Assembly: GCA_002256245.1 (NCBI GenBank)
Contig: NKIU01000014.1
Coordinates: forward strand, 1 to 64,000
Length of the DNA: 64,000 nt
Reading direction: 5' to 3'
From: Pseudorhodobacter sp. PARRP1
Lineage (GTDB): Bacteria; Pseudomonadota; Alphaproteobacteria; Rhodobacterales; Rhodobacteraceae
The notes beneath the pieces were generated by a model. It saw nothing but the letters and a program-made list of their open reading frames with translations. It did no database searches and had not been told where the DNA came from. This document shows, in pieces, positions 4,601-58,817 of the stretch. The position numbers and the translations under genes were made by a program. The stretch's first letter is position 1. The number at the start of each line of letters is the position of its first letter.

Positions 4601-6253
4601 GGCAACGACACCCTCTCGGGTGATCTGGGCAATGACAGCCTGTTCGGCGGCCTTGGCAACGACCAGCTTTATGGCGGAGACGGCGCCGACACCCTGTTCG
4701 GCGATGCGGGCGATGACCCGCTGGACGGCGGGCAGGGCGCTGACAGTCTTGAGGGCGGTGACGGCAACGACTCGATCGTGGGCGGCGCGGGTGTGTGGAA
4801 TGACACGCTGGTGGGCGGCCTTGGCGACGACACCATCTGGGGCGGCGACGGCACCGATCTGGCCTATGGCGGCGACGGCAACGATTCAATCTCAACCGGG
4901 CTTGGCAATGACACCGTCTATGGCGGCGCGGGCAATGACACGCTTTCGGGCGCAGACGGCAACGATCTGCTTTACGGCGGCAGCGGAGACGACTCGCTGC
5001 GCGGCGGTATCGGCGACGATCTGCTGGATGGTGGCGATGGCAATGACATCTTGGACGGCGGCTCGGGCAACGACACCGTTCTGGGCGGCTTGGGCAACGA
5101 TACCATTCTGGCAGGCTCGGGCGACGACCAGCTGACCGGCGGCGACGGCGACGATTCCCTCAACGCCTCGCTCGGCAATGACACCGTGGACGCAGGTGCC
5201 GGCGACGACAGCATTGACGCAGCGTCCGGCAATGACCTTGTCTATGGCGGTGACGGGCAGGACAGCATCTTTGGCGGCGCCGATGCCGACACGCTTTACG
5301 GTGACGCGGGCAACGACCTTTTGTCGGGCGGTGACGGCGATGACCTGCTGTTCGGCGGGTTGGGGCGCGATGTGGTCGCGGGCGACGCAGGCAATGACAC
5401 CCTGCACGGCGGCGCGGGGGCCGACACGCTTTACGGTGGCACCGGCAATGATCTGTTCGTCGCCGAGGCGAATTCTGACATCTTTGGCGATGTGGTCGAT
5501 GGGGGCGAGAACACCGCTGACAACGATGTGCTTGACCTGACCTCTTGGGGCTGGGCGCGCACCAACATCCTTTACGATCCGCTGAACCACGAAAACGGCA
5601 CCGTCGAGTTTGTCGACTCGACCGGCCACGTGATCGGCACCATGACCTTTTCCAATATCGAAAAGGTCATTCCCTGCTTTACCCCCGGCGTGATGATCAC
5701 CACCCAGCGCGGCCCGGTCGCCGTGGAGGATCTGGCCGTGGGCGATCTGCTGGTGACACGCGACAATGGCCTGCAACCGATCCGCTGGATCGGCAGCCGC
5801 AGCCTTGGCCTTGGCGATCTGATTGCGCAGCCGCGCCTGCAACCGGTCAAGATCGGCCAAGGCGCGCTGGGCGGTGGTCTGCCGTTGCGCGACACGCTGG
5901 TGTCACCACAGCACCGGATGCTGATCGAAGGCGCGCTGCCCGAGATGCTGTTTGGCGAGGCCGAGGTGCTGGTGGCCGCCACCCACCTGACGACCCTGCC
6001 GGGCATAGCGCAGGTGCTGCCGCCGCGCGTCACCTATATTCACCTGCTGCTGGATCACCACGAAATCATCTGCGCCAACGGGGCATGGACCGAAAGCTTT
6101 CAACCCGCCGAACGGATGCTGAACGCGCTGGAAGACGGCCCGCGCGCCGAAATTGCGGCGCTGTTTCCCGAACTGGCACTGGACCACGCAAGCTATCCCG
6201 CAGCCCGCATGACGCTGAAAGCGCATGAAGCCAAGGTGCTGCTGTTGGCCTAG
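1661..6253 (+). CDS. Giant RTX adhesin-like protein: nidogen-like domain, RTX array, Hint domain
   Basis: A 1530-residue acidic protein. ATG 1661 is preceded by AAGGAG 8 bp upstream; the TTG at 1655 is less likely. Residues ~15-210 look like a nidogen-like (NIDO) extracellular domain (VNTNGLITF, APFWTDID, FQVVITN). RTX nonapeptides begin near residue 260, are interrupted at ~330-500 by a Thr/Ser-rich non-repeat segment (nt ~2640-3170), then run on as several dozen repeats to about residue 1290. The last ~200 residues are a Hint domain (PCFTPGVMI, RDNGLQPIRWIG, SPQHRMLI) paralogous to that of the preceding gene. Expected to be exported by type I secretion and to bind calcium outside the cell. 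Role in adhesion or biofilm is inferred from architecture only. Confidence 0.9.
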   Translation: MAVLNSGLGGTSGYGEQSFKTTGGYTGSLDDGSRVVDVSGVFGSGGMDVYGTRFTSIYVNTNGLITFNSAQPSYTPAALTTLGQPSLAPFWTDIDISKGGDIYWDIDATTGRVTITWLNVAPYTGTGTNSFQVVITNLGGGDFGVDYLYNSVGFTNGYAGQATVGISNGTTSQTLLEGSGDPAFLVTYAGNDFDTNDPAGVYSMQFEAGQVFLGDGVVDGTAGSDLIDTSYVGDPDGDRIDANDATGYAGTTGQADYVLAGAGNDTVNSGLGNDIVYGGSGNDVVNAGSGNDTVFGDDDNDSLDGSSGNDVIYGGAGDDTLSGGSATTGTTYTPSYTEVTTALQSVAGTNGRANFTVNTVSSDNQLSTGTSGTLTGFFLGNTDAVETHTHTASSQLAGGQILFNAINGNETLTIVIDGVTINLNTAISSGLVTFNGNGVYAINAAGQVIRIGSGASSTTNGTLTINVPFTTLSLTSGGTTTGTAAGLYYEFYANTNPLNIAAEAAGDDYLSGGLGNDSLLGYDGTDTLFGDEGNDTLDGGNGNDSLSGGIGDDSVLGSAGNDTLTGGDGRDSLYGGADADSLTGDAGNDLLYGGDGNDSLDGGADNDTLYGDAGNDSLLGGAGDDLLYGGAGNDTLFGGDGNDSLDGGADADSLTGDAGNDTLNGGAGADALFGGAGMDYADYSGSGAGVTVDLAAGTGLGGDAQGDVLNGIDGIFGSAFDDTLLGYDPESTVPGDVWTNVLYGAAGNDSIDGRAGSDSLYGGTGNDTVIGGAGNDLVDGGDGNDSLTGDAGNDTLLGGLGDDRLYGGADNDTLSGDAGNDLLYGGLGLDYLSGGADNDTLYGDDGADTLDGGAGADLLFGGAGNDSLLGGSENDTLNGDDGDDTLLGGAGNDSLSGGLGNDSLLGEAGNDTLLGGDGNDTLDGGTEADLLYGGNGNDTLLGGSENDTLYGDAGEDSLSGGTGLDQLFGGDGNDTLLGDDGNDTLSGDLGNDSLFGGLGNDQLYGGDGADTLFGDAGDDPLDGGQGADSLEGGDGNDSIVGGAGVWNDTLVGGLGDDTIWGGDGTDLAYGGDGNDSISTGLGNDTVYGGAGNDTLSGADGNDLLYGGSGDDSLRGGIGDDLLDGGDGNDILDGGSGNDTVLGGLGNDTILAGSGDDQLTGGDGDDSLNASLGNDTVDAGAGDDSIDAASGNDLVYGGDGQDSIFGGADADTLYGDAGNDLLSGGDGDDLLFGGLGRDVVAGDAGNDTLHGGAGADTLYGGTGNDLFVAEANSDIFGDVVDGGENTADNDVLDLTSWGWARTNILYDPLNHENGTVEFVDSTGHVIGTMTFSNIEKVIPCFTPGVMITTQRGPVAVEDLAVGDLLVTRDNGLQPIRWIGSRSLGLGDLIAQPRLQPVKIGQGALGGGLPLRDTLVSPQHRMLIEGALPEMLFGEAEVLVAATHLTTLPGIAQVLPPRVTYIHLLLDHHEIICANGAWTESFQPAERMLNALEDGPRAEIAALFPELALDHASYPAARMTLKAHEAKVLLLA
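2430..5460 (+). repeat. Long coding array of 27-bp RTX units
   Basis: About 3 kb of imperfect 27-bp units, each coding a GGxGNDxLx nonapeptide, with short recurring words such as ggcaatgacac and ggcggcgacggcaac. A non-repetitive block of ~530 bp (about 2640-3170) splits it. The repeats stay in frame and vary mostly at third positions and at the two variable residues, so this is a selected protein repeat rather than a satellite. It is a likely site of slippage, recombination and short-read misassembly. Confidence 0.85.
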
Positions 6254-6257
6254 CACC

Positions 6258-6302
6258 CGATTTCCGCCACGGAAATCGTGCCGGAATTTGAGACAAATTC
6301 CG
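6258..6302. repeat. Twin-hairpin intergenic element, copy 1
   Basis: Two adjacent hairpins: CGATTTCC/GGAAATCG (6258-6278) and CGGAATTT/AAATTCCG (6282-6302), separated by TGC. It begins 5 bp after the stop of the second RTX gene. The same layout recurs at 23227-23268 and 26730-26770, with a conserved joint CGTGYCGGAWTT. It could act as a transcription terminator or 3'-end stabiliser, but there is no T-tract. Confidence 0.6.
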
Positions 6303-6315
6303 CCCGCGCCTGCCA

Positions 6316-6909
6316 TCAACCTTCGGTCAAACGCCCGGCCCGCCATGCCGCCCAAGCCTCGGGCGTGTCCAGATCGGTCAGCGCGTGCTGATCGGGCAGG
6401 GCGATCAACCGGACCCGTGCGGCCTTGTGCTGCAAAATGCCCCGCGCCCCGGCGTCGCCGCGCAGGCCCTGTAAGTCTGCGCGCAAGTCTGCCGGAAAGA
6501 TCACCGGATGCCCCGGTCTGCCATCCGCAGTTGCACCGCGCCAAATGGCATCCGAGGCCTGATCGAAGGCGACGATCAGCAAGCGCAGATCATCCGTGGT
6601 AAGTTCCGGCATATCGGCAGGCAGGATCATCACGGCACCGGGCGCCGCCCGCGCCCCGGCGCGGATGGACGCGGCCATGCCCTCTTCTGCGTCCACCACG
6701 GTGAGCACGCCCACATCAAGGCCCGCCAAAACCTGCCGCCGCGCCGTATCCGATGACCGCAGGGCCACAATCACATGTCTGCATACCGCCCGCGCCATCT
6801 GCGCTTGCCTGCGCAGCATCGGCGTGCCGTCCACATCCTGCAACAACTTGTCGCCGCCGCGCATACGGCTGCTGGCTCCGGCGGCGGGGATCAGGATGGT
6901 CAGGGTCAT
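6316..6909 (-). CDS. MocA-like nucleotidyltransferase (NTP_transf_3)
   Basis: A 197-residue member of the MobA-like NTP transferase family. The N-terminal ILIPAAGASSRMRGGDKLL is the nucleotide-binding loop (LxxGxSxRMGxxK type), and ILPADMPELT supplies the metal-binding Asp. The segment RPGHPVIFP resembles the GHP motif of molybdenum cofactor cytidylyltransferases (MocA), which convert Mo-molybdopterin to the cytosine dinucleotide form for xanthine-oxidase-type enzymes. ATG at 6909 gives the canonical N terminus; the frame stays open further upstream but without family similarity. No Mo-enzyme genes adjoin it here, so the substrate is uncertain. One copy of a dispersed palindrome pair lies ~90 bp upstream of the start. 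Confidence 0.75.
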   Translation of the reverse strand: MTLTILIPAAGASSRMRGGDKLLQDVDGTPMLRRQAQMARAVCRHVIVALRSSDTARRQVLAGLDVGVLTVVDAEEGMAASIRAGARAAPGAVMILPADMPELTTDDLRLLIVAFDQASDAIWRGATADGRPGHPVIFPADLRADLQGLRGDAGARGILQHKAARVRLIALPDQHALTDLDTPEAWAAWRAGRLTEG

Positions 6910-6998
6910 CGGCAAAGGTTGGCGCAAAGCCAAACCCCGGTCAAGCGACCGGCGGGACCAAACCTTGCCGCGCGAAAACCGGGCCAACAGTGCAAAAA

Positions 6999-7073
6999 CC
7001 ACAACATGTTGTGGAAATCAGGCCGGGATAGCGTTGAAAAACACAAGTCTGTCCCCGCGGGGACAGATTTGTG
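6999..7073. repeat. Composite palindrome-pair repeat, copy 1
   Basis: Perfect 16-nt palindrome CCACAACATGTTGTGG (6999-7014), then 34 nt, then perfect 18-nt palindrome CTGTCCCCGCGGGGACAG (7049-7066). The second palindrome extends with one mismatch to a 32-nt inverted repeat (7042-7073). The centres are 51 bp apart. It lies between the start of the MocA-like gene and the stop of the dehydrogenase gene. An inverted copy with the same 51-bp geometry is at 58651-58720. Function unknown: paired protein-binding sites or RNA hairpins are both possible. Confidence 0.7.
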
Positions 7074-7102
7074 CGTCAAAAACTGCGGCGGAAGGGCTTG
7101 GA

Positions 7103-9520
7103 TCAGCCCCGCATCCGCGCGCCATCGGCGTCAAACAGCGGCGCCAGTTGAACGACGGCGCGGCGACGCTCGCCCAGGATCTCGATCTCACATTCCAGAC
7201 CGTCCTGCACCTTGTCTGCGGGCAGGAACCCCATCGCCACCGACGTGCCGGTGAAGTGGCTGAAGCCACCACTGGTGCAGAAGCCCACGACCGCACCGTC
7301 CAGCCAGATCGGCTCCCATGCCACCACATCGGCATCCTTGGCATCGACGATGAACGACACCAGCTTGCGCGCGGGCCCTGCGGCCTTTTCGGCGGTGGCT
7401 TTCGCCTTGCCGATCCAGTCGGCATCCTTGTTCCAGCGGATGAAGCGATCCAACCCGGTTTCGCAGGGCGTATAGTCGGGCGAAAACTCGCGCCCCCAAG
7501 AGCCGAACCACTTGTCCAACCGCAGGCTCATCATCGCGCGCATCCCGAACGGGCGCAGGCCCAGATCGCTGCCCGCTGCGTTCAAGGTCTCCCACAAGTG
7601 CCGCACCGACATGTGGTCGCAGAAAATCTCATAGCCCAGATCGGCGGTGTAGCTGACGCGCTGCACGATGCACTTGGCCATGCCCACGGTGATTTGCTTG
7701 ACGTCCATAAACTTGAACGCCTCGCCCGACACATCGGTGCGGGTAACGCGGGCAAGCAATTCGCGCGCATTCGGCCCGGCAATCTGGAAGCCCGAGCGCG
7801 CGTCCGAGACGTTTTCCACCGTCACGCCGTCCATCGCGTTCTGCTCGAACCAGCGGTAATGCCAGCCCTGCGCGCCATAGCTGGCGGTCAGTTGGAATTC
7901 GGTTTCCGACAGGCAAGACACCGTGAAATCGCCGATGATCTTGCCGGAATGCGCCAGCATCGGGGTCAGGCTCAGGCGGCCCACCTTCGGGATATTCCCC
8001 GCCATGATCCGGTCCAGCCAGGCCCGCGCGTTCGGCCCCTTGACGATATACTTGCCAAAGTTCTGCAACTCGTTGATGCCAACACCTTCCCGCACCGCCA
8101 TGACTTCCTGACGGGTCGCTTCCCACGCGTTCGAGCGTTTGAAGGTCGGCTCCTCATAGGTCGGCTCGCCGGGGAGGGCGTAGTAGTTCACCACTTCCAG
8201 CCCGTATTGCTGGCCCCAGACCGCGTTCAATGCGGTGTTGGTGTCATACATCGGCGTGGTGCGGAACGGGCGGGCTGCCGGGCGTTCCTCGTTCGGATAG
8301 CCGACCGAGAAGCGCATCTGATAGTTCTCGATTACCTTCGGCACGGTGTAACCCGGCGTGGTCCAGGTGCCAAACCGCGACACATCAAAGCCGCGCGGGT
8401 CACGCTCGACCTCGCCCTCGATCATCCACTGCGCCAGCGCCAGCCCCATGCCGCCGCCTTGGCTGAAGCCTGCCATCACCGCGCAGGCCGACCAGTAATT
8501 CTTCAACCCCTGCACCGGGCCGATCAGCGGGTTGCCATCGGGGGCAAAGGTGAAGGGGCCGTGGATCACCCGCTTGACGCCCGCTTTTTGCAGGGCGGGG
8601 AAGCGGCGATAGGAAAACTCGATGCTGTCGGCGATCTTGTCATACTGATCTGCCAGAAGCTCCTGACCCCATGTCCAGGGCGTGCCGTCAATGCTCCACG
8701 CTTCGCAGGGTTTTTCGTAAAAGCCGATGCAGAAGCCGCGGCCTTCCTGACGCAGATAGCTTTCGCCGCCGGGGTCCATCACATGCGGAAACTCGCGCCC
8801 ACCCCGGGCGACGATTTCGGGGATGTCGTCGGTCACCAGATACTGGTGCGCCATCGGCAACAGCGGCAGGTAAACCCCGGCCATCGCACCCACTTCGCGC
8901 GCCCAAAGGCCGGCTGCGTTGACCAGATGCTCACAGGTGATGGTGCCTTTGTCGGTGACCACTTCCCAACCGTCGCGGGTGGGGTTGGTGGCAATGACCT
9001 TGGTGTGCAGCATAATCTCGGCCCCGCCCATCTTGGCGGCTTTGGCATAGGCGTGGGTGGTGCCGTAGGGGTCAAGGTGGCCATCAAGCGGATCGTAAAG
9101 CGCGCCGATGATGCCTTCCAGATTGACCATGCCATCGGTCAGCTTGGCGATCTCTTCTGGCCCAAGGATTTCGGTATCCAGCCCCATATAGCGGTGCTTG
9201 GCGCGCTCGGCCTTCAACTGATCAAACCGCGCCTGATTGTCGGCCAGCGTGATGCCGCCGACATGGTGCAGCCCGCAGGACATGCCGGTGATCGCCTCAA
9301 GCTCCTTGTAAAGCCGGATGGTGTAGCCTTGCAGCGCCGCCATGTTGGTGTCGCCGTTCAGCGTGTGAAACCCGCCCGCCGCGTGCCAGGTCGAGCCAGC
9401 GGTCAGTTCTGCCCGCTCGATCAGCGTCACATCCGACCAACCAAGTTTGGTCAGGTGATACAGCACCGAGCAGCCAACAACGCCGCCGCCAATCACAACT
9501 ACGCGGGTATGGGTTTTCAT
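7103..9520 (-). CDS. FAD-dependent dimethylglycine/sarcosine dehydrogenase-family protein with GcvT domain
   Basis: An 805-residue two-module enzyme. Residues 1-~400 are a DAO-type FAD oxidoreductase: VVIGGGVVG dinucleotide-binding loop near the start and the STWHAAGG motif, whose His46 is the residue that links FAD covalently in dimethylglycine and sarcosine dehydrogenases. Residues ~430-800 are an aminomethyltransferase (GcvT-like, tetrahydrofolate-binding) half with a C-terminal barrel. The family oxidatively demethylates N-methylated glycines and passes the C1 unit to tetrahydrofolate. ATG 9520 is preceded by AAGGATT; an in-frame ATG 18 nt upstream lacks this. Exact substrate cannot be told from sequence. 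The MTHFR/methyltransferase block at 49-51 kb could use the C1 units, but the two loci are far apart. Confidence 0.85.
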   Translation of the reverse strand: MKTHTRVVVIGGGVVGCSVLYHLTKLGWSDVTLIERAELTAGSTWHAAGGFHTLNGDTNMAALQGYTIRLYKELEAITGMSCGLHHVGGITLADNQARFDQLKAERAKHRYMGLDTEILGPEEIAKLTDGMVNLEGIIGALYDPLDGHLDPYGTTHAYAKAAKMGGAEIMLHTKVIATNPTRDGWEVVTDKGTITCEHLVNAAGLWAREVGAMAGVYLPLLPMAHQYLVTDDIPEIVARGGREFPHVMDPGGESYLRQEGRGFCIGFYEKPCEAWSIDGTPWTWGQELLADQYDKIADSIEFSYRRFPALQKAGVKRVIHGPFTFAPDGNPLIGPVQGLKNYWSACAVMAGFSQGGGMGLALAQWMIEGEVERDPRGFDVSRFGTWTTPGYTVPKVIENYQMRFSVGYPNEERPAARPFRTTPMYDTNTALNAVWGQQYGLEVVNYYALPGEPTYEEPTFKRSNAWEATRQEVMAVREGVGINELQNFGKYIVKGPNARAWLDRIMAGNIPKVGRLSLTPMLAHSGKIIGDFTVSCLSETEFQLTASYGAQGWHYRWFEQNAMDGVTVENVSDARSGFQIAGPNARELLARVTRTDVSGEAFKFMDVKQITVGMAKCIVQRVSYTADLGYEIFCDHMSVRHLWETLNAAGSDLGLRPFGMRAMMSLRLDKWFGSWGREFSPDYTPCETGLDRFIRWNKDADWIGKAKATAEKAAGPARKLVSFIVDAKDADVVAWEPIWLDGAVVGFCTSGGFSHFTGTSVAMGFLPADKVQDGLECEIEILGERRRAVVQLAPLFDADGARMRG

Positions 9521-58650: not shown

Positions 58651-58720
58651 CTGTCCCCGCGGGGACAGACTTGTGTTTTCCGCAGCTTGAACGCGCCAAA
58701 AACCACAACATAATGTGGTT
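58651..58720. repeat. Composite palindrome-pair repeat, copy 2 (inverted)
   Basis: CTGTCCCCGCGGGGACAG (58651-58668), identical to copy 1, then 32 nt to an imperfect palindrome AACCACA-ACATAA-TGTGGTT (58701-58720). Centres are 51 bp apart, exactly as at 6999-7073, in opposite orientation. The segment adjoining the first palindrome (ACTTGTGTTTT) is also shared. It lies between the convergent ends of the ketosynthase and IalB-like genes. Confidence 0.7.
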
Positions 58721-58786: not shown

Positions 58787-58817
58787 AAAAAGCCCGCCGA
58801 ACCTGCGGCGGGCTTTT
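58787..58817. terminator. Intrinsic terminator between ketosynthase and IalB-like gene
   Basis: AGCCCGCCG/CGGCGGGCT stem (58791-58799 with 58806-58814), flanked by AAAA and TTTT, 22 bp beyond the IalB-like stop. Works for the minus-strand gene and possibly for read-through from the ketosynthase. Confidence 0.85.

Follow-up and report, generated by a model that had tools for sequence, protein, structure and literature searches.

The 64,000-nucleotide stretch of Pseudorhodobacter sp. PARRP1 DNA analysed here (the window) carries two copies of a composite element that belongs to a family dispersed over the genome. The 16-bp core palindrome of the family, TGTCCCCGCGGGGACA ("B"), is very probably the site of an orphan ParB, a ParB-family protein encoded on a plasmid of the same genome. 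Comparison of sequences further suggests that the elements may be composite loading sites for a clamp formed by this protein, with a chromosomal role like that of Noc, a reading that we consider evenly poised between right and wrong.

In copy 1, palindrome A (CCACAA-N4-TTGTGG, positions 6999–7014, no strand assigned) has A-runs on its flanks, half-site C (CACAAGT, 7042–7048, plus strand) is fixed just outside B, where it is conserved in the elements called type 1 below, and an 18-mer (7049–7066) contains the B core (7050–7065), a parS-like site of the orphan ParB clade. Copy 2 is inverted relative to copy 1, with the 18-mer at 58651–58668, the B core at 58652–58667, C at 58669–58675 on the minus strand and A (CCACAACATAATGTGG) at 58703–58718. 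The preliminary description had located both copies exactly, and its measurements were reproduced: the centres of A and the 18-mer are 51.0 bp apart in copy 1 and likewise in copy 2, the 18-mer is the same in both, the neighbouring AAAACACAAGT is common to both and the remaining spacer is unrelated. When up to three mismatches are allowed, the window contains two occurrences of the 18-mer, where 0.04 would be expected and none of 100 shuffles contained two, while CCACA-N6-TGTGG alone, with one mismatch allowed, is not unusual (4 against 2.5 expected). Beside copy 2, outside the element, a terminator-like hairpin (GCCCGCCG...CGGCGGGC, then a T-run; 58792–58817, plus strand) was noticed by eye; it is missing from the terminator scan, which requires five T, and hairpins resembling it were found in relatives without the element.

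The preliminary description had proposed a genome-wide search with tabulation of the distance between the palindromes, and had named independent occurrence or variable spacing of the two as what would speak against it. Such a search reveals a dispersed family. The genome carrying the window (G000; 4.35 Mb, 28 contigs) contains 62 exact copies of B and none of the reversed control. Type 1 elements have the order A, about 26 bp, C and B; type 2 elements have a CCACAA-like half-site and then CCTACAGAGAT, adjoining B. In G000 and two further species (G007 and G001), 81 type 1 rows were collected, or 77 after removal of three mirror-image rows (window 7050 minus, L016 minus and L043 plus) and one tandem row (L085). 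These four were excluded from the orthology and GC-skew counts, and the three mirror-image rows also from the orientation counts; all were kept in the spacing counts, where their A score fell below threshold. A clear A, defined as at least 9 of 12 matches (reached by 1.5% of shuffles), is present in 66 type 1 rows, and its centre lies 50 (35 rows), 51 (21), 40 (9) or 41 bp (1) from that of B. Elements spaced by 50/51 bp thus number 56 and those spaced by 40/41 bp number 10, the two classes differing by about one helical turn, and no A scoring at least 9/12 was found in type 1 rows at any other distance in the scanned range of 26 to 65 bp. At a distance of 49 bp, 17 of the 22 type 2 rows have at least 7/12 matches to A, and six have at least 9.

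The exact A pattern CCACANNATNNTGTGG occurs 12 times in G000, 9 times in G007 and 13 times in G001, and zero or one time in six other genomes. On one strand, a C-like half-site comes after each of these 34 sites, at 26–27 bp (33 sites) or 16 bp (one site), and 32 of the 34 have a clear B; at L288 B is shifted and degenerate, and L289 is without B. B without A also occurs, in the form of extra tandem copies, of which up to six B-like ones follow B in G007 under relaxed matching. The claim of an invariant 51-bp spacing therefore fails genome-wide, and what survives of it is that the variation is quantised (50/51 and 40/41 bp) and not free; what had been named as speaking against the description was thus observed in part, since B is also found on its own and the spacing varies, though in steps. 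Together with the match of B to ParB-family sites, this quantisation points to a two-site protein complex on one helix face, one of the two possibilities originally put forward, and we think it likely that the orphan ParB assembles on the same face with a putative protein binding A and C. Unlike copies of a dispersed mobile repeat (MITE/REP-like), the elements show no whole-length similarity, and only A, C and B are common to them. The right half of A resembles a relaxed DnaA-box consensus; a DnaA-box reading was dropped. At L086 (G007:C2:140500–145500), six B-like copies are spaced by about 28 bp, with three near-identical repeats.

Elements at a common genomic position in two species form 36 pairs, and both flanks match in 35; these counts are lower bounds, because the G007 and G001 elements were fetched only in part. 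In the 19 usable orthologous type 1 pairs, the halves of A are 87–92% identical, C 97% and inner B 93–95%, whereas identity is 46–57% in the spacers and 36–59% in the outer flanks. Conservation of A, C and B against a diverged spacer supports the suggestion that both palindromes are under selection. At three orthologous positions, type 1 and type 2 are swapped. The places in G001 orthologous to the two window copies each hold a related element, that of copy 1 without a clear A, and no element is present at the corresponding places in G007 and seven other congeners.

Of the 62 exact sites in G000, 59 could be placed. They fall in 50 loci, and 45 of these loci lie on contigs other than C13; five located sites are on C13, which is probably a circular plasmid, and 54 on other contigs. 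By the gene calls of one simple in-house script, 61 of 63 sites (up to one mismatch) lie outside called genes. The gaps of at least 100 bp that host sites (n = 49) are convergent in 27 cases, co-directional in 20 and divergent in 2, compared to 26, 84 and 62 among the other gaps of that size at the same loci (n = 172), a convergent excess (Fisher p = 5.5e-8) and a divergent deficit (p = 2e-6). Where the neighbouring genes are co-directional, elements point either way relative to transcription about equally often (13 vs. 15). In each of the three species, one element separates the orphan parB from repA, and an exact B core is also seen within the orphan parB coding sequence in G000 and G007 (L049:3932 and L101:2518). 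Just upstream of a type 2 B site, L018:5000–5060 contains a strong hairpin (CCCCCGCAATGC...GCATTGCGGGGG-like, with a T-run) that is probably the terminator of the neighbouring gene. In an exploratory count, elements were oriented against versus with the local GC skew at 30:11 in G000, 22:6 in G007 and 17:13 in G001 (p = 0.008 for the 37 loci of the orientation count, likewise exploratory); such a bias, weak in G001, would fit a replication-linked role.

The orphan ParB (327 aa, G000:C13:3751–4731) is encoded divergently from a RepABC operon in G000, G007 and G001; the protein families at this locus were confirmed for G000. No ParA gene is present in the orphan parB operon in any of the three. 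This unrelated RepABC module carries a canonical parS of its own, GTTGACAGCTGTCAAC. Contig ends are identical over 127 bp in G000:C13 (70.9 kb) and over 54 bp in G007:C19 (64.1 kb), so both are probably circular plasmids; no overlapping ends were found for G001:C38. C13 also carries what we take to be photosynthesis genes, identified by recognising their sequences. The orphan ParB is without the N-terminal RRGPMAxAIxENA segment that is present in seven of seven aligned partnered relatives; it and its two orthologs instead have an MS[IL]TRPFxAxP tip and a variable linker. It scores below the Pfam ParB_N cut-off, and with the Noc model TIGR04285 it reaches 17.6 bits against a cut-off of 315. The stretches GWRR and VDENLVRK, presumably part of the nucleotide-binding fold, are kept, which makes clamp activity plausible. 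The loss of the usual partner gene hints that a centromere system of plasmid origin has been turned into one that binds the chromosome. The neighbouring RepABC operon encodes a ParA-family protein, RepA, that could be the partner of the orphan ParB, which counts against the proposed reading.

A comparison across Rhodobacteraceae, which had also been proposed, ties B to a clade of plasmid ParB proteins. The exact B core was found in 33 of 394 sampled family genomes, and in all 33 a ParB homolog adjoins GTCCCC...GGGGAC palindromes. A positional count gave adjacency in 27 of 27 contigs entered (from 25 other genomes, G000 and G007); it took in contigs with known positions, while the 33 genomes were covered by the survey of residues and sites. 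In other genera, the ParBs are ca. 41–49% identical to the G000 protein. ParA neighbourhoods were inspected at 13 loci, and the partnered loci among those inspected comprise nine parA-parB modules (L110, L196, L215–L219, L303 and L304), with ParA assigned by profile at L110, from annotated records at L303 and L304 and by likeness at the others. Several loci carry photosynthesis genes, and a small replicase-like gene of L217 and L304 matches DnaA_N near the cut-off; both features fit the DnaA-like I photosynthesis plasmids described in PMC6052148. Near parAB of Roseobacter litoralis pRLO149_94 lie three exact cores and three with one mismatch, and the Ruegeria pomeroyi megaplasmid (L304), which has a different ParB variant, has no core.

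Residues 179–180 of ParB, which open the presumed recognition helix, follow the palindrome, and residue 179 covaries with its outer base pair. Among 53 distinct ParBs compared, these residues are RQ in 35 of the 35 with GTCCCC...GGGGAC sites, which are not 35 independent events, because most of the genomes were selected on the strength of their sites and the ParBs share ancestry. They are PQ, PQ and YQ in three ParBs with TTCCCC...GGGGAA sites, while YT pairs with TTACCC palindromes and YS with TTATCC. Exceptions to the rule are four ParBs that have R followed by A or S and no GTCCCC site, three of them with TTTCGCGCGCGAAA. It is possible, judging by these pairings, that the two residues form a recognition code for the parS palindrome. 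In the Caulobacter ParB, the arginine R173 contacts the first guanine of parS (PMC7383237), and we infer that residue 179 is its equivalent.

Between congeners, B changes symmetrically with ParB. G001, whose orphan ParB is 66–67% identical, has 47 matches to CACAAGTNNTTCCCCGCGGGGAA with up to three mismatches, 18 of them perfect, the 18 perfect places having the form C-N2-TTCCCCGCGGGGAA; the GTCCCC core has one exact copy there. In G000, CACAAGTNNTTCCCCGCGGGGAA is without any match with fewer than two mismatches. A decayed composite in G000 (L195, G000:C24:771748), with a B resembling the TTCCCC type of G001, is possibly a fossil of the other specificity.

A second dispersal was found in G091, a genome of another genus with 79 exact cores. 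Gene calling over the 12 kb around its ParB (L214, G091:C17:6000–18000) gave no ParA; this ParB adjoins bchO/bchD-like genes and is without the N-terminal segment even when 80 upstream in-frame codons are included. A is absent from 15 of 15 G091 sites read (best score 7–8/12), and some sites lie within coding-looking sequence. Evidence against a strict link between dispersal and loss of ParA comes from G015, where ParA stands beside ParB, yet 7 of 10 exact cores are on other contigs, and from G108, with at least three cores on another contig. A further counter-case is G009, which has two C-B-like places and no ParB homolog above 33%.

Dispersed sites of a ParB-family protein are already known from Noc of Bacillus subtilis, with ca. 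70 dispersed NBSs. Noc (PMC4331003) resembles the present case in being a ParB-family protein without a ParA partner that has dispersed short palindromes, as well as in its altered N-terminus with a conserved tip and variable linker; here too a ParB paralog without a ParA partner, its adjacent RepABC RepA being divergent, accompanies dispersed palindromic sites. Unlike Noc, the gene is on a plasmid and belongs to a plasmid ParB clade, and the site is a composite with A and C. The parS of DnaA-like I plasmids such as pRLO149_94 is the same palindrome beside homologous ParBs; unlike their modules, in which parA and parB are adjacent and a few sites lie around them, the operon here is without ParA and the sites are genome-wide. 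B resembles RepABC parS in being a short, group-specific palindrome, reciprocal single-base changes of which separate compatibility groups (PMC5613091). A reading of B as a RepABC parS was rejected, since B misfits the consensus GTTNNNNGCNNNNAAC given in PMC9040568 and RepABC has its own site. A reading of A as a RepA operator was also set aside: the conserved region upstream of repA has another inverted repeat (TACGGTAT...ATGCCGTA, by eye).

In the mechanism that we propose, each element would be a composite protein-binding site. The orphan ParB would bind B and load there as a CTP-dependent clamp, and on the same face of the DNA a putative protein at A and C, possibly the orphan ParB itself, would fix, lock or block the clamp on one side. 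The complexes formed genome-wide would work like Noc and would anchor or organise the chromosome in a manner coordinated with replication, segregation or division.

Other explanations account for part of these observations. ParB might bridge plasmid and chromosome sites and let the plasmid travel with the nucleoid, no dedicated ParA being needed; indeed, the gene and five sites are on the plasmid, the other located sites are on other contigs and ParA is absent from the operon. We consider such a tether unlikely, since a RepABC with a parS is already present on the plasmid, selection of chromosomal sites requires a benefit to the host and the G091 genome, with its many cores, has its ParB on a contig without shown circularity. 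Somewhat less probable is long-range regulation of the KorB/KorA type, in which ParB slides from B, is stalled or locked by the A-binder and represses or relieves neighbouring genes. RK2 pairs a ParB-type clamp with a second DNA-binding protein at separate operators (PMC11790492), and the element between the orphan parB and repA would suit such a role; however, KorA operators are at promoters, while A is away from them, and the divergent, promoter-bearing gaps are avoided (2/49 host vs. 62/172 other gaps) and convergent ones favoured.

That the element is a selfish or neutral repeat, spread once and bound only incidentally, would agree with its scattered distribution (4 of 41 relatives have an exact core) and with copy 2, where the element lengthens a gap that in G007 and others is short, but its pieces are kept at orthologous positions while the spacer diverges, B changes symmetrically with ParB and the copies share no whole-length similarity, and we judge this improbable. 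The least probable reading is that of a pair of hairpins acting in RNA or as a bidirectional terminator; a two-hairpin RNA was the other possibility originally put forward. The palindromes fold with energies better than those of shuffles (z −3.6 to −5.1), which is to be expected of perfect palindromes in general; a T-run follows A on the B-to-A strand at copy 1, and sites are near gene ends. This reading was rejected on the free orientation between co-directional genes, the one-turn steps in spacing and the separate terminator-like hairpin at copy 2. An Rfam search of window positions 6000–8000 also gave no family at gathering score, its one match being far below. Viral contigs contain no match to one exact 24-mer. 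The interpretation in the preliminary description is thus partly supported.

No description of this element was found in the titles and abstracts of the open-access literature searched. Within that literature, it is new that such a gene lies on a plasmid, is of plasmid-type origin and has an alphaproteobacterial host, and the composite, helically phased site and the second, separate dispersal are new as well. We tentatively suggest, as a less than even possibility, that a leftover ParB of a photosynthesis plasmid has become a ParA-independent factor whose clamp loads beside a helically phased second DNA-binding protein at about 50 selected sites and couples plasmid and chromosome maintenance, with a similar conversion, lacking A, in G091. 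In Alphaproteobacteria, it seems, a plasmid ParB has taken on a new purpose, perhaps on two occasions, and the plasmid ParABS state persists in relatives. Selection apparently acts, elsewhere in the genome, on the candidate binding sites of a plasmid gene, and the switch of site and protein specificity between congeners, together with the surviving ParABS state, makes the step from centromere protein to chromosome factor directly testable.
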